From contig NZ_JWJD01000011.1 in assembly GCF_000820505.1 (NCBI RefSeq), positions 1 through 64,000 on the forward strand: a DNA stretch of 64,000 nucleotides, in the 5' to 3' direction. Positions within the stretch are counted from its first letter, which is position 1. The number at the start of each line of letters is the position of its first letter. The notes below the pieces were generated by a model. The model had not been told where the DNA came from and did no database searches. It was given only the letters and a program-made list of their open reading frames with translations. The translations under genes were made by a program, and so were the position numbers. This stretch comes from Geoalkalibacter ferrihydriticus DSM 17813 (GTDB taxonomy: Bacteria > Desulfobacterota > Desulfuromonadia > Desulfuromonadales > Geoalkalibacteraceae). Shown piece by piece: positions 52,248-59,993 of the stretch.

Positions 52248-54275
52248 TCAGGGCAGCAGCTCCCGCCAGGCGCGCAGCGAGGTGGGTCTGGCGGGGAGGG
52301 TCGGGCTGAGTGCGCGCAGGGACGTATCTCCGCTGGATGACAGCAGGGTGCCGGGCTGTCCATGACTGCCGAAACGCCATAGCAGCCCGCCTGGCGTGCC
52401 GGAGCCGAGTCGTTCGTAGCGTCGCCCCGCGGGCAAGTCTCCGCTCTTGCCATGCCTCAGTACGGTCCGTCTGCCATGGCGCGCCTGTATGCCGCTGTCG
52501 TGAGAGACGGCGTAGAGTCGCGCCTCTTCGGCGCCGAACCCACAGGGGCCCGCGGTGGGCGTGAAGGAAGTGAAAAAGACCACCCCCGCCACCACCAGCG
52601 GCGTGGCCGTGATGCGCTCGGCCGGATTTCCCGCCGGAGGATCCAGCAAAAAGTACCAGCCCTGTTCCCTGAGTTTTTCTTTTTCCTCTGCCTTCAGCCA
52701 GTGCACGGCGTTCTCATGGGCCAGGCCGGTGACATCGGTCAACTCGGCCGGGGTCTGAGGAGCAAACGGCGTCTGGCCGAAGGGGTGCGCGGGATGATCC
52801 TTGCGGCGACGCTCGATGAGCCCGTAGAAAGCGTTGCGGTGGCTGTCGTCATGCTCCGCGTCGATGAGATAGCGGCCGGTGCCGAAATAGACGCGCAGAT
52901 CGCCGCGGCCATCAAAGGCCAGGGTCGGACGCCCGCTGATGGCCCGGCCGCCGGTGTCGAAACGGGCCGTGGCGCGCCAGGCACGAATTTGCGCGTCGTA
53001 GAAAAACTTCCAGAGAAGGCCTTCGCTGTCACCGGCATAGATCAGGTCGAGATAGCCGTCGCCGCTGCTGTCGATGGCCACCGGATCGGACAGGGTGTAG
53101 TAGGGGTTCGCTTCGCCTTTGACGCCGGCATGCAGGGTGCGCGCGCCGCCGGGACCCAGGGGCAGGGCCGTGGCGTCGCTCAGGGCCAGGGCGCGCAGGC
53201 CGCCGCGCTGGTCATCTTCACGCACGCCGCTGGTGAACAGGGCGGCCCAGCGTTTGGTCGGGAGAATCGGGCCGATGACCGGGCGCGTCGAAGCCCGAGC
53301 GCCGGAGAAAGGGTGGGCTTCCCACAGCAGAGCGACACCCTGGGGCGTGGGTTTGGTAATATCCAGAGCAAAATAGCCGGGACCGCCCAGGCCGCTGCCG
53401 CCGATGAGCACGGTTTTCCAGGCGTTTTCCCCGAAGCCCCAGGCGCTGTCCCGGGCATCGGCGGCCATGGGCGCCAGATCGACCAGATAGCGGTGGCCGC
53501 TCTCCGGGGTATTTCCCAGGCGCTGCTGAACACTGGCGGGAAGATAGGCCCAGGCCTCGCTGCCGGCAGGGGTGTTCGGGCCGCCGAAGGCGTAGAAGGC
53601 ATGCAGCATGCCGTTGTTGGCTCCGGCATAGATCAGGGTCGGACGTCTCTGGTGCCGGTGGCGAAAGGCCGCATAATCCTCTGCGCGATGATGGGCTTGA
53701 GGCGCGCCCACGACCAGGGGGGCGGAATGGATGATGGTGCCCAGGGGCAGCGCGCGAATTGCATTGATGGTGTTCGCCGTTGCGGTCGCGTCCAGGCCCC
53801 AGAGTTGCTCAAAATAACTCAGGGTTTGCCCTGCCGCGCGCAGGGGCAGCAGGCGGTGGGCGGTGTCGTCGCCGGGGGTAAGAATGTGGCGCGTCGCGGG
53901 CACCCTGGCGTCCAGCAGGGCTGCGGCCGACCACAGAGGGCTGTGGTCGGGGGGCAGGGGGTCGGGAACGGGCAGACGGAAGGCTTCGAGATCGCCGCGT
54001 GCCTGCGCGGGAGCAAAGCGCGTGCGCAGCAGCAAGTCGGGTCCGTCAGGTGCGTTGCTGATAGCAGTCGGGCCGGCGCCCGCGATCCAGGATGGCGGAA
54101 AGTCCGTGGATAGTTCGTCAACGGCAGTAACCTGGTGCTCGCAGTCTTGCTGCAAGGCGCGTTTGGCCGAGGGCGGAAATTGCGGGACCCCGAACAATTC
54201 CACTCCGGACGCCGGGAATGGGGCGCACATCAGGAACTGAAGCAGGAGCGCCAAGGTCGGCAGTGGGCGCGCCAT
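52248..54275 (-). CDS. pilY1: Short PilY1-like type IV pilus assembly/adhesin protein
   Basis: About 675 residues. A signal peptide (RPLPTLALLLQFLMCAPFPA) is followed by the C-terminal beta-propeller domain of PilY1, with the calcium-site-like DSSGDGYLDLIYAGDSEGLL. The large N-terminal von Willebrand-like region of full-length PilY1 (usually over 1000 residues) is absent. ATG 54275 starts just after the pilX stop; ATG 54287 is an alternative. PilY1 promotes pilus extension, adhesion and sensing; a reduced version may keep only the pilus-assembly part. Confidence 0.85.
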   Translation of the reverse strand: MARPLPTLALLLQFLMCAPFPASGVELFGVPQFPPSAKRALQQDCEHQVTAVDELSTDFPPSWIAGAGPTAISNAPDGPDLLLRTRFAPAQARGDLEAFRLPVPDPLPPDHSPLWSAAALLDARVPATRHILTPGDDTAHRLLPLRAAGQTLSYFEQLWGLDATATANTINAIRALPLGTIIHSAPLVVGAPQAHHRAEDYAAFRHRHQRRPTLIYAGANNGMLHAFYAFGGPNTPAGSEAWAYLPASVQQRLGNTPESGHRYLVDLAPMAADARDSAWGFGENAWKTVLIGGSGLGGPGYFALDITKPTPQGVALLWEAHPFSGARASTRPVIGPILPTKRWAALFTSGVREDDQRGGLRALALSDATALPLGPGGARTLHAGVKGEANPYYTLSDPVAIDSSGDGYLDLIYAGDSEGLLWKFFYDAQIRAWRATARFDTGGRAISGRPTLAFDGRGDLRVYFGTGRYLIDAEHDDSHRNAFYGLIERRRKDHPAHPFGQTPFAPQTPAELTDVTGLAHENAVHWLKAEEKEKLREQGWYFLLDPPAGNPAERITATPLVVAGVVFFTSFTPTAGPCGFGAEEARLYAVSHDSGIQARHGRRTVLRHGKSGDLPAGRRYERLGSGTPGGLLWRFGSHGQPGTLLSSSGDTSLRALSPTLPARPTSLRAWRELLP

Positions 54276-54276
54276 C

Positions 54277-54771
54277 TCAGTACCCATCGCCGTGGATGAT
54301 GCGACCGGCGCTGACTTCGATGAGCGACTGCGCCTGCAAGGGTCCGTAACCGCGCGCGTGGATGCTGTAGTCGATGCGCCGGAAGTCGGTGCTGTACAGG
54401 GGCGGCTGACTGGTACCGAGATAGTGGATGGACACGGCGAAGCTGCTCTGCCCGTCGGCGGCGTCCAGGTTTTGGGGCGCACCGGCCGCGGCGCTGGAAA
54501 AAGCCTCTGCCCAGCCGCTCGGCGCGCTCAGGCTGCCCAGGTCTTCCCTGATCGCCCCGGGCTGGCTTTCCAGCCAGAACAGCCCGTACTGCCAGCCGCT
54601 CTCGGCTTGATAAAAGGCCAGGTCGCGAACCGTTTCATTGCGCGTGATGCAGGTCTCGACCAGGGCTGCCGAGGTGACCGCCATGCCCAGCAGGGTGAGT
54701 AGGGCCAAGACCATGAGAGTGATCAGCAGGGCCGCGCCGTTCTGCTTGCGAAGGTTGGTTTTCAGGTGCAT
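54277..54771 (-). CDS. pilX: PilX-type minor pilin
   Basis: A 164-residue protein beginning MHLKTNLRKQNGAALLITLM, the typical PilX N-terminus with G^AALLITLMVL and a hydrophobic helix. AGGAGGAGAAC precedes ATG 54771. It lies between pilV and pilY1 as in other minor pilin operons and is probably part of the pilus-tip priming complex. Confidence 0.88.
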   Translation of the reverse strand: MHLKTNLRKQNGAALLITLMVLALLTLLGMAVTSAALVETCITRNETVRDLAFYQAESGWQYGLFWLESQPGAIREDLGSLSAPSGWAEAFSSAAAGAPQNLDAADGQSSFAVSIHYLGTSQPPLYSTDFRRIDYSIHARGYGPLQAQSLIEVSAGRIIHGDGY

Positions 54772-54843
54772 GTTCTCCTCCTGCAATAACCGAGGTAATT
54801 CTCTGCTTTGCGTTCATCGCACCTCTGCGGGAAGCCCGTTCTA

Positions 54844-55284
54844 TCAGAACCCCGCTGCGCGAATGAATTCCAGGGTGGTGCTCTGCTTGCCGCCCTGTGC
54901 CTGCCAGAGGGCCAGGATCCGCACCGTCTTGAGACCGGGAACCGGATCGTCTTCGGCGATATTCCAGAACACCCGGATTCTTGCGATGCCGGGTGGTTCC
55001 CAAACGTGATCGGCCGGTGCATCTTCGTCGTCGCGGTCATCGAGTCCGGCGCGGCCGTTGCCGTTGACGTCCTGTAAATCGTCATGGTCGTAGGGCAACG
55101 CCAGCAGGTGTTCGGCAAGGCTTTTGGCCGCGGCCCGTCCCTGGGTGCGCAGCTCCGCCGCGCCGGCGGCACGAAGCCCCGTGCCTTGCAAAGTGGCGAC
55201 GGCCAGCAGCCCAACGGCAAACAGACTCAGGGCGATGAGTACTTCGAGTAAGGTAAATCCTTGTCGAGATTTGATGGGTATCAT
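54844..55284 (-). CDS. pilV: PilV-type minor pilin
   Basis: A 146-residue type IV prepilin. The cleavage and methylation site reads RQG^FTLLEVLIALSLFAVGL. The C-terminal domain is Asp-rich (DVNGNGRAGLDDRDDED), which may bind calcium. It overlaps pilW by four bases. It is processed by the prepilin peptidase and joins the minor pilin complex. Confidence 0.88.
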   Translation of the reverse strand: MIPIKSRQGFTLLEVLIALSLFAVGLLAVATLQGTGLRAAGAAELRTQGRAAAKSLAEHLLALPYDHDDLQDVNGNGRAGLDDRDDEDAPADHVWEPPGIARIRVFWNIAEDDPVPGLKTVRILALWQAQGGKQSTTLEFIRAAGF

Positions 55285-55988
55285 GGTCCCATATTGCGCA
55301 AATATACGGTTTCGCTCAGCAAACGGCGGCGCTCCTGGCCGCGCAAGATGAAGACCGTTGTCAGGCTGACGTCGATGCGCCGGATTTCTCCGGGAGATGC
55401 AACCTCGCCGCTGATGGGATCAGGCGCGCGTTCCTCCAGATTGCCGTCCTCATCGCTGACAAAGTAGCGAAAGCTGATCCCGGCAAGGTTGTCGGCGAGG
55501 GGCTGGTGATAACCCATTCCGGGCCGGTCGACGGCCCTCTGCCCACTGCCCGAGCAACTGCCGCCGCCACTTCTGCCGCTGTGCATGCCCAGGGTGTCGC
55601 CGCCGTATAGGCAGAAGGCGATATGCTCACCTGGAGCCGTCAGTTGTCCGTCCGGCGTGCCGGCATGGGGTCCAGAGCCTACGCCGCCCAGGTCGCGGGT
55701 GATGTAGAGGTAATCGGTGCGGGCACTGACAATGCCGGCACCGGCCCGTTCGGTAGGGTCAAAACCGGCGCTGCGCAGATGGCTGGTGAGAACGGCCATG
55801 GCTGCGCGCAACCTGCTCTGGTCCTCCATGAGTCGCACGTTGGCCGAGTAAGCGTCCTGGTGACTGCGATACAGCGCGAAGATCGCGCTTGCCGCCAACC
55901 CCGTCAGGGCCAGGGCCAACATCACTTCGATGAGGGTAAAGCCGCGCGGACGAAACCGGAATCTGCTCCTTCGTTTTGGGCTGTTCAT
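55281..55988 (-). CDS. pilW: PilW-type minor pilin
   Basis: A 235-residue prepilin with RPRG^FTLIEVMLALALTGLA and the conserved ANVRLMEDQSRLRAAMAVLT segment followed by HLRSAGFDP typical of PilW. It overlaps both pilV and fimT by four bases, so the operon is translationally coupled. It probably forms the initiation complex of the pilus with PilV and PilX. Confidence 0.9.
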   Translation of the reverse strand: MNSPKRRSRFRFRPRGFTLIEVMLALALTGLAASAIFALYRSHQDAYSANVRLMEDQSRLRAAMAVLTSHLRSAGFDPTERAGAGIVSARTDYLYITRDLGGVGSGPHAGTPDGQLTAPGEHIAFCLYGGDTLGMHSGRSGGGSCSGSGQRAVDRPGMGYHQPLADNLAGISFRYFVSDEDGNLEERAPDPISGEVASPGEIRRIDVSLTTVFILRGQERRRLLSETVYLRNMGP

Positions 55989-56476
55989 GGATTCAGACGC
56001 ACGGCGCCATAGAGAGTCATGGTCAATCTGTGAACCGAGCCATTATGGGGGCTGCGCAAGGACAGGGTGCCGCTGCCGTGAGTCGGCATCCCACGGAAGT
56101 CAAACCCGGCGCGCGCCGATCCCTGGGCAAAGCCGACCCCTTCGAGGTGCAAGGCTCGAAGGGGCGTAAATGCCTGGATTTCGCGCAACTGCCCGGCGCT
56201 GTCCGTGGCCAGAATACGGTAGCCGCCGCGCGTTTGAGCCGGGGGCTCCTCGGCCGGGGTAAATTCGAGGAAGGCGCGCCCGTTGCTGCGCGCTGCCTCG
56301 GAGCGCGCCTGTTGAAAGGCGGCCAGCAGGGCGCGCGCCTCGGCGTTTTCCTGCATGCGGATCTGCCAGTGGCGCAGATTGGGGAAGGAGAGAGCGGCGA
56401 TCACTGAGAGGATTAGCAGAACAATGAGCGATTCCCACAGGGTAAAGCCCCGGGAATGCCCGGAAAGCATAGGCAT
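55985..56476 (-). CDS. fimT: FimT/GspH-type minor pseudopilin
   Basis: A 163-residue prepilin with SRG^FTLWESLIVLLILSVI and a GspH/FimT-like body (ALLAAFQQARSEAARSNGRA). ATG 56476 is chosen because GGGGGGAA stands upstream and the leader is then short, as in the family. It is first in the operon fimT-pilW-pilV-pilX-pilY1-51528. FimT proteins are implicated in DNA uptake in some species. Confidence 0.87.
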   Translation of the reverse strand: MPMLSGHSRGFTLWESLIVLLILSVIAALSFPNLRHWQIRMQENAEARALLAAFQQARSEAARSNGRAFLEFTPAEEPPAQTRGGYRILATDSAGQLREIQAFTPLRALHLEGVGFAQGSARAGFDFRGMPTHGSGTLSLRSPHNGSVHRLTMTLYGAVRLNP

Positions 56477-56743
56477 GGCGGATTCCCCCCCAATCTTTCT
56501 AAATACAGGACGGCAGATGCCGTAAACAATTGCATAAAACAGGCGCGAGTATGCCAAAAGTTGCCTGTCCGAGCAACAAAAAAATACAGAAATGCCAGCA
56601 ATAACAGGTTTTTGTCTGATTTTAATCTTTTCGTTTTTTGGCTCTGCTCTGAGCCGCGCCGAAGGGTTTTAAACGCGTGCAGGTCTTGCGGCGGACGCTC
56701 AGGGGTGATAGACTCCGGCGCAACTTTTCGCAAGGAGTTCTCC

Positions 56744-56998: not shown

Positions 56999-57373
56999 GG
57001 TTTTCTCCCCGCGCTCCCTGGTTCGGGGCGCGCGGTTGATCGCTGCGACGCAACCTCTCATTTTTTAACTCACCTTAGTATATCTCTTTCATACACCCCT
57101 CGCTTTTTTCAATTTATTACTTAAAAAACAAGGCATTACGCGACATCTTTGCGCGCCCCGTCTCCCCGGTCCTGCATGTGCCGCATAATTTTCCTATACC
57201 TTCACACGCAAATTTCTCCCTCGCACCGCTTCCTGCAAGTCTAAAAAATCCAATAAAAACAATTGTTTAATTTATATCCGCGATTTTTCTCAAAATTGGT
57301 ACGGCTTATGCTCTATAGGAAGGTCAGATTGGATATGTAGGTAAGTAAGTGCATTGAGCAAAGGAGGCCAGCC
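56999..57373. other. AT-rich intergenic region upstream of the cytochrome operon
   Basis: No gene is seen. After a short GC-rich inverted repeat near 57015-57045 the sequence becomes AT-rich and ends with a sigma-54-like promoter (57296-57312) and a purine-rich ribosome site. Confidence 0.6.
57296..57312 (+). promoter_or_regulatory. Candidate sigma-54 promoter of the cytochrome operon
   Basis: TTGGTACGGCTTATGCT matches TTGGCACRNNNNTTGCW with two differences, and the invariant GG and GC are ten bases apart. The sequence upstream is AT-rich as expected for an enhancer-dependent promoter. The first gene begins about 60 bases downstream. Confidence 0.55.
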
Positions 57374-58122: not shown

Positions 58123-58359
58123 ATGAAAGTCAAAAGTCTATTGGGAGCGTTGATTGTAGTACTGGCCGGCGCGGGACCGGCCTTGGCGGCAGCAGGAGCG
58201 CGCCAGGACAACAGCGGCCTCGTGGTGTGGGTATTTCTTGGTTTCTGCGCCCTGATCGTCGTCGCTCAATTGCTGCCCGCTCTGCTGATGATGCTGGGCG
58301 TGGTCAAGGCCGTGGCTCGCGACAAGGAGTTCACTCCGCAGAAAGTCCAGAACAAGTAA
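58123..58359 (+). CDS. Small membrane protein B of the cytochrome operon
   Basis: A 78-residue protein with a signal peptide (VKSLLGALIVVLAGAGPALA) and one hydrophobic helix, VFLGFCALIVVAQLLPALLM. It is related to small protein A (57374) and to the next small protein. AAGGAGG directly precedes ATG 58123. Its function is unknown; the organisation suggests a subunit of the membrane complex encoded downstream. Confidence 0.75.
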   Translation: MKVKSLLGALIVVLAGAGPALAAAGARQDNSGLVVWVFLGFCALIVVAQLLPALLMMLGVVKAVARDKEFTPQKVQNK

Positions 58360-58448: not shown

Positions 58449-58685
58449 ATGAAACGGGGAGCGTGGTCGTTAGTCTGCATCGGGTTGTTTCTTGGAGCAT
58501 TGACTCTTGCCGCGGCGGTGCCCGGGGTCATGGACGGGTTCGCCGGCATCGTCATCAGCATCTTTCTGCTCTACTGCGCCATCATCGTGGTGGCTCAATT
58601 GTTCTCGGCACTCTATGCCATGCGCTTGATGGTTGAGGACTCTCTTGATAAGAAGCGGGTTTCACGCCGCGTTGATCTGAACTGA
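58449..58685 (+). CDS. Small membrane protein C of the cytochrome operon
   Basis: A 78-residue protein with an N-terminal signal-like hydrophobic segment and a second helix (FLLYCAIIVVAQLFSALYAM) that repeats the [FY]-x-A-[LI]-I-V-x-x-Q-L pattern of proteins A and B. The tail is basic (DKKRVSRRVDLN). ATG 58449 follows GGAGG. Tandem duplication of one ancestral small gene is the simplest explanation of the three copies. Confidence 0.72.
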   Translation: MKRGAWSLVCIGLFLGALTLAAAVPGVMDGFAGIVISIFLLYCAIIVVAQLFSALYAMRLMVEDSLDKKRVSRRVDLN

Positions 58686-58726
58686 AGCCGGATAATTAAA
58701 TTGAATATCGAATAAGGAGATGAATC

Positions 58727-58819
58727 ATGAAAACCTCGACAAAAAGCGTACTTTTTCTGTTCGCCGCGTACTTCGTAAGTTTTGTCGTTCTGGTCGTGCT
58801 TCCGACCGGAGGGGCATAA
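58727..58819 (+). CDS. 30-residue membrane peptide resembling the cytochrome leader
   Basis: This short gene encodes a 30-residue peptide, basic at the N-terminus (KTSTK) with a single hydrophobic helix and a PTGGA end. AAGGAG lies eight bases before the ATG. The FLF-x2-YF-x2-F-x2-LV-x2-P-x-G pattern is shared with the first 30 residues of the cytochrome beginning at 58941. Its small size makes it easy to miss. It could be a small subunit or a decayed partial duplicate. Confidence 0.68.
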   Translation: MKTSTKSVLFLFAAYFVSFVVLVVLPTGGA

Positions 58820-58940
58820 TCCAATGTGCGGGATCTCTTCAGCGCGGCGCTGAACGAGAATTCCGGGAGATGAGGTGGGCAGTCTGCAGCCTGGGGTTGT
58901 CCTGGGTCGGCCCAGGGTTTATAGACAGGGAGGCAAAACC

Positions 58941-59993
58941 GTGAAAATCAAAGCGAAACACCTGGTTTTTCTATTTTTTATGTATTTTCTGGCATTTATT
59001 GCCCTGGTCGCGGTGCCGGGCGGTTGGGCCGCGGACACGGACCACTGCCTGATGTGTCATGGCGATGCCGGGATGGTGGGCGAGGCCCTGTATGTTGACG
59101 GGGATAAGTTCGCCGCCACTCGGCATGGCGACATGGGCTGCGTGGCATGCCACGAGGATGCCGGCTATGAGCATCCCGACGACGGCATGGCCTTGGCCGC
59201 GGTCAACTGCAACGACTGCCACTTCGACGTCGAGAAAGAATACAACGCCGGTATCCATGCTGGTCTGGCGAGCTGCAACGATTGCCACGAGCCCCACAGC
59301 GTACGTGGACCTACCGAAGTCAGTGGCTACGACATGAACCTGATGTGCATCGGTTGCCACTCGGTGTCGCGCATGGTCGACAGCCACAATCGCTGGCTGC
59401 CCCAGGCCGGACTGCATATCGAGGCGGTGCCCTGCATCACCTGCCATACCGATTCGGAAGAGGTGGTCATAACCTGGTACCTGGTCAAGCAGAAGCAGGC
59501 CTACGGCGATTTTGTCCTGATGAGCAACGAAGAGTTGCAGGAAGTTGCCGGTGAGCGCAGCATCACCGAACTCGTCGACCGCGACGGCGACGGCCATGTG
59601 AGCCTGGCAGAATTGCGTGCTTTCAACACCGCCCGGGAATTTCGCGGTCTGCACCTGGTGGGAATGATGACGCCCGAGCAGGTCAGCCATAACTTTCAGG
59701 TACTCGACAACCGCTGGGACTGCACCTTCTGTCACGCCTCCGGGCCCGAGGCGATGCAGGTGAGCTACCTCGCCTTTCCCCGCGGAGACGGCTCCTTCAA
59801 GAGGCTTGATGTGGAACGCGGCGCGGCTCTCGATGCCCTCTACGGAACGCCTAATTTCTACATGGTCGGTGCCACCCGCAACAAGACCATGGACATTCTT
59901 GGTGCCATGATCATCGCCGGCGGCCTGGTGCTGCCCGTCGGACACGGCACGATGCGCTTCTTTACCCGCAAAAATCGTCAGGGAGGACATTAA
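58941..59993 (+). CDS. cbcA: Membrane-anchored heptaheme c-type cytochrome with EF-hand (CbcA-like)
   Basis: A 350-residue protein. An N-terminal signal/anchor (about 1-30) is followed by seven CxxCH heme sites beginning at residues 36, 67, 90, 112, 136, 165 and 261, and a C-terminal transmembrane helix (ILGAMIIAGGLVLPVG). Between hemes 6 and 7 a canonical EF-hand loop occurs, D213-x-D215-x-D217-G-x-V-S-x-x-E224. GTG 58941 follows GGGAGGC. A heptaheme c cytochrome next to a di-heme b cytochrome matches Geobacter CbcA-CbcB, which pass menaquinol electrons toward extracellular acceptors. The symbol is by analogy. Confidence 0.82.
   Translation: MKIKAKHLVFLFFMYFLAFIALVAVPGGWAADTDHCLMCHGDAGMVGEALYVDGDKFAATRHGDMGCVACHEDAGYEHPDDGMALAAVNCNDCHFDVEKEYNAGIHAGLASCNDCHEPHSVRGPTEVSGYDMNLMCIGCHSVSRMVDSHNRWLPQAGLHIEAVPCITCHTDSEEVVITWYLVKQKQAYGDFVLMSNEELQEVAGERSITELVDRDGDGHVSLAELRAFNTAREFRGLHLVGMMTPEQVSHNFQVLDNRWDCTFCHASGPEAMQVSYLAFPRGDGSFKRLDVERGAALDALYGTPNFYMVGATRNKTMDILGAMIIAGGLVLPVGHGTMRFFTRKNRQGGH

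Follow-up and report, generated by a model that had tools for sequence, protein, structure and literature searches.

The cbc operon and its short open reading frame

Our analysis of a 64,000-nucleotide stretch of the genome of the iron-reducing bacterium Geoalkalibacter ferrihydriticus DSM 17813 (hereafter the window) revealed a respiratory gene cluster that encodes, in this order, an 82-residue membrane protein, a receiver-domain protein, two 78-residue membrane proteins, a peptide of only 30 residues, and proteins resembling CbcA and CbcB. The positions of these genes and of the associated sequence elements are given in Table 1.

Table 1. Genes and sequence elements of the cbc region, with positions in the 64-kb window.
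Feature	Position	Strand	Basis and remarks
Sigma-54-like promoter element TGGTACGGCTTATGCT	57297-57312	+	GG/GC elements with correct spacing; 10/12 consensus positions; presumed operon promoter
Small membrane protein 1, 82 aa	57374-57622	+	ORF; hydropathy (N-terminal signal-like segment and one TM); conserved in family
Stand-alone response-regulator receiver protein, 130 aa	57679-58071	+	Pfam Response_reg, E=9e-9
Small membrane protein 2, 78 aa, FLGFCALIVVAQL	58123-58359	+	ORF, hydropathy, relatives; resembles 1 and 3
Small membrane protein 3, 78 aa, FLLYCAIIVVAQL	58449-58685	+	ORF, hydropathy, relatives
AAGGAG ribosome-binding site of the 30-residue peptide	58714-58719	+	Sequence; 7 nt 5' of ATG; AAGGAG also 5' of the G002 ortholog
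30-residue peptide ORF	58727-58819	+	ATG start; 30 aa; encodes MKTSTKSVLFLFAAYFVSFVVLVVLPTGGA
G+C-rich hairpin CCTGGG-TCGG-CCCAGG	58901-58916	+	Predicted fold; possibly an mRNA element, lacking the T-tail of a terminator
cbcA ribosome-binding site GGGAGG	58928-58933	+	Sequence; kept in G001 and G002
cbcA-like heptaheme c-type cytochrome, 350 aa	58941-59993	+	Seven CxxCH; multiheme Pfam hits; C-terminal hydrophobic segment
cbcA leader (signal peptide), relative of the 30-residue peptide	58941-59030	+	Alignment; first 30 residues MKIKAKHLVFLFFMYFLAFIALVAVPGGWA; GTG start at 58941
cbcB-like b561-type cytochrome b, 216 aa	59998-60648	+	PF01292, E=3.5e-29

The seven CxxCH motifs of the cbcA-like product are located at residues 36, 67, 90, 112, 136, 165 and 261, and its C-terminal segment TMDILGAMIIAGGLVLPVG (mean hydropathy 1.75) is predicted to fit a membrane anchor. 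A loop at about residues 210-228, after the sixth heme motif and before the seventh, resembles a calcium-binding EF-hand (DRDGDGHVSLAEL); Pfam EF-hand matches in this protein were below cut-off. In Geobacter sulfurreducens, CbcA (GSU0594) is a membrane-bound heptaheme cytochrome and CbcB (GSU0593) a PF01292 protein (PMC7726332), and a part in electron transfer at potentials near -0.2 V has been described for the CbcBA complex (PMC12307469). The window likewise contains a heptaheme c-type cytochrome gene adjoining a PF01292 cytochrome b gene, and by this architecture and by hits in other Geobacter-type genomes the two products would represent the CbcA and CbcB of a menaquinol oxidoreductase. 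A second cbcB-like gene (73% identical) was found elsewhere in the same genome (G000:C4:48777-49394), with no cbcA-like gene seen directly upstream and no peptide within 1.5 kb upstream.

The sigma-54-like site was found nearly identical 5' of the same first gene in two species of the same genus (G002 and G001) and in one further member of the family (G005), and in a weaker form (9/12) in another (G004), so that its position is kept in 5/5 family genomes examined. Since six sites with at least 10 of 12 matches occur on both strands of the 64-kb window, the weight of this element rests on its conserved position and not on its score. No sigma-70-like promoter was called inside the gene cluster. 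The receiver-domain protein has an odd place among the small membrane genes of a respiratory operon, and is conserved in relatives. The three small membrane proteins share a helix pattern (FLGFCALIVVAQL, FLLYCAIIVVAQL, FFGFFALIVATQL) and appear paralog-like, none of them reaching the cut-off of a curated family; comparable small membrane proteins occur upstream of cbcA in many relatives. Further upstream of the operon, on the minus strand (52248-56557), we observed genes of the minor-pilin kind, whose products carry N-terminal motifs of the methylation type (GFTLIEV, GFTLLEV), together with a large PilY1-like frame.

The 30-residue product has a lysine-bearing N-terminus, a hydrophobic core of 19 residues with a mean Kyte-Doolittle value of 2.75, and four residues past a proline; very probably it is a single helix of the inner membrane with its N-terminus inside. 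Searches against Pfam, NCBIfam and PHROGs up to E=1 returned no match to it, profile methods being weak at a length of 30 residues. A coding role of the overlapping frames, including an antisense ORF that is also 30 residues long (58725-58817), was considered and rejected, as protein conservation in G002 was lower in all five alternative frames of the segment and one of them gains a stop codon there.

Similarity between the peptide and the CbcA leader

The original prediction, made from the letters of the window, held that the small frame encodes a likeness of the leader of the cytochrome that follows it, and this observation was borne out. In an ungapped alignment 14 of 30 residues are identical, the start residue included, and the proposed common pattern FLF-x2-YF-x2-F-x2-LV-x2-P-x-G recurs unchanged in each of the five sequences available from the genus (peptides and leaders). 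At the nucleotide level, 52 of 90 positions are identical between peptide and leader segments in the window, and 58 of 90 between the peptide of G002 and the leader of that species. Judged by its A-x-A-type motif, the CbcA leader would be cleaved after Gly-Trp-Ala, and the stop codon of the peptide coincides with the cut position thus inferred.

Both segments are short and hydrophobic, and two signal-like stretches of this kind might come to resemble each other by chance or convergence. Several results speak against such an explanation, which we consider the least probable of all readings discussed here. When the leader was shuffled inside its n-, h- and c-regions, a fraction of 2e-5 of the trials attained the BLOSUM score of the real pair, and a fraction of 6e-4 its identity count. 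When the peptide was searched against whole genomes, the best matches after the peptide itself and its G002 ortholog were the cbcA leaders of G002 (E=2e-4), of G001 (E=0.0012) and of its own genome (E=0.003), and not unrelated signal peptides. Moreover, homologous cytochromes outside the genus carry leaders that differ in appearance, as judged by eye. Because the search returns the leaders next after the ortholog and the region-preserving shuffles reach the score so rarely, we regard the similarity as real, and as exceeding what hydrophobicity would bring about.

Conservation and distribution among relatives

The peptide gene was found at the same place in G002, a sister species whose cbcA product is 90% identical to that of the window. 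The G002 ortholog, MNISTKSVLFLFAVYFVSFVALVVLPSGAA, shares 24 of 30 residues (80%), and the nucleotide changes between the two genes are distributed over the three codon positions as 1/4/18. This corresponds to a dN of 0.10 and a dS of 1.7 (dN/dS of about 0.055), where dS is based on 24 synonymous sites with change near saturation and is hence rough, the bias still being clear. For the same species pair, the receiver gene, the genes of small membrane proteins 2 and 3, mature cbcA and cbcB gave dN/dS values of 0.03-0.12, and the cbcA leader alone, over few sites, a value of 0.24. Under a null model of random substitution, an identity at least as high as that observed, without a stop codon, arose in 1e-4 of trials. 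As judged by this ortholog at the same place, by the distribution of changes over codon positions and by a dN/dS similar to that of other operon genes, the 30-residue ORF is a real gene under purifying selection.

The original prediction had offered two explanations for the small frame: a membrane peptide that stands alone and has a signal peptide as its source, and the remnant of a duplicated cytochrome. The former is supported by the frame being present in the corresponding place in G002 and by its strong synonymous bias. The latter shares with it the shared ancestry with the cbcA leader, from which the similarity stems, but a decaying remnant would not be expected to show purifying selection at the level of the other operon genes, nor an intact frame with a ribosome-binding site in two diverged species, and nothing recognisable by eye as mature cytochrome follows the stop codon of the peptide in the spacer. 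We therefore regard decay as very improbable and largely refuted.

The third species of the genus that could be compared, G001 (cbcA product 80% identical), has the same type of leader (MKIKAKHLFFLFIMYFLAFVALVAVPAGWA) and a complete operon, but there cbcA follows the third small membrane gene after a spacer of just 36 bp, and the peptide is absent; it is thus dispensable for CbcBA in that species. In the fourth genus member, G003, the contig ends inside cbcB, which makes this genome uninformative for the peptide. The two other family members, G005 and G004, carry other leaders and no peptide, and the 117 nt spacer upstream of cbcA in G004 contains no hydrophobic small ORF. At the remaining homologous loci the leaders differ in kind, and the leaders themselves, the ORF listings and the profile search revealed no small ORF resembling the peptide, the spacer being measured automatically at about half of these loci. 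A profile built from the five sequences gave its own members, by construction, 65-69 bits. Across 136 genomes of the order nothing else matched it convincingly, the best hit reaching 18.3 bits (E=0.013) and the next E=0.03, both of them partial. The expectation that the frame would be conserved in relatives therefore held in one of them, and failed in one species of the same genus and in all more distant relatives examined. Among the genomes examined the peptide gene is restricted to the genus and present in two species only.

Origin of the peptide gene

By its likeness to the leader, the peptide gene very probably arose through duplication of the leader segment of cbcA. Because this type of leader was seen only in the genus and the peptide in only two of its species, both are probably recent. 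In the simplest scenario, the leader segment was duplicated once, in the species ancestral to G. ferrihydriticus and G002; an older duplication followed by loss in G001 would fit as well, and so would the reverse direction, in which the small gene supplied the leader. A tree of the five 90-nt sequences placed the peptides apart from the leaders, a topology that is compatible with either direction of descent and with either loss or primary absence in G001. The duplicated segment would have ended at the leader cut site, so that the membrane-inserting part alone was retained. A narrow literature search turned up no described case in which the signal peptide of a gene had given rise to a small membrane gene beside it. 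Since the likely donor sequence, a species with the leader only and two species with a peptide under selection all survive, an origin from a signal peptide is directly testable in this genus.

Potential functions of the peptide

The position of the small gene directly upstream of cbcA, from which it is separated by a spacer of 121 nt in the window (58820-58940) and 79 nt in G002, would also suit a regulatory leader ORF, the translation of which tunes cbcA through a spacer hairpin or by drawing the mRNA towards the membrane, with little importance attaching to the product as such. Strong G+C-rich hairpins are indeed predicted in the spacers of both peptide-bearing species. However, the ribosome-binding site of cbcA is largely unpaired in the predicted folds, no T-tailed intrinsic terminator or sigma-70-like promoter was called between the peptide and cbcA, and the region gave no match in Rfam. 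The dN/dS of the peptide gene also indicates more conservation of amino acids than a simple leader ORF would need. Furthermore, as a matter of general knowledge, a chain of 30 residues remains within the ribosome tunnel, and an export-sensing arrest of the SecM/VemP type is unlikely. Taken together, we consider a regulatory leader ORF unlikely.

Another reading is that of a free membrane peptide that merely shares the operon, for example a small membrane-active protein of the stress or toxin kind, or one that modulates Sec or signal peptidase. TimP of Salmonella, a protein of 38 residues that is toxic when overexpressed, illustrates that a small protein can reside in the inner membrane with its signal sequence uncleaved (PMC7667032). 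The peptide described here and TimP are similar in that both are small inner-membrane proteins consisting mostly of signal sequence; TimP, however, is encoded by a gene standing alone, is repressed by the sRNA TimR and is toxic on overexpression, and nothing of that kind was seen at the peptide locus. The Rfam search around the locus and the calling of sigma-70-like promoters in the cluster revealed no antisense or sRNA partner, and the gene, embedded in a respiratory operon whose promoter precedes it, does not form a self-contained module. We rate this reading as less probable again than regulation by a leader ORF.

Because of the purifying selection on its amino acids and its place inside the operon, the peptide is most likely an accessory single-helix protein of CbcBA, encoded by a genus-restricted gene that arose from the leader duplication; we consider this reading somewhat more probable than not. 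The association with CbcBA, suggested by gene order, and the role itself are inferred. According to this proposal, translation of the peptide would start from the AAGGAG site that precedes it in the sigma-54-type cbc operon. Being too short to leave the ribosome before the stop codon is reached, the peptide would be inserted post-translationally, its lysine end staying in the cytoplasm while the Gly-Gly-Ala end comes to lie at the periplasmic face. There it would accompany the CbcBA menaquinol oxidoreductase and either stabilise the complex or adjust how it is assembled, in the way that CydX serves cytochrome bd.

Respiratory complexes are known to include small single-helix proteins, and the origin of the genes for these is seldom visible. 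The peptide has in common with CydX and CcoQ-type subunits its very short length, its single helix and the place of its gene in an operon for a respiratory membrane complex. Those subunits, however, are widespread and experimentally shown (CydX, PMC4325964), whereas the peptide is restricted to one genus, has no sequence relation to CydX that we could find, and would be derived from the signal peptide of its own partner. In comparison with CbcBA (GSU0593/GSU0594), the operon in the window is extended by the 30-residue peptide, which we saw in no homologous operon examined outside the two species of the genus. A new gene for a membrane subunit may thus have been born within its own operon by copying the signal peptide of a partner, and may have become a functional part of the menaquinol oxidoreductase in one branch of the genus, a proposal that we put forward tentatively, as possible rather than probable. 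The peptide may mark a lineage-specific change in a complex that serves extracellular electron transfer near the energetic limit.
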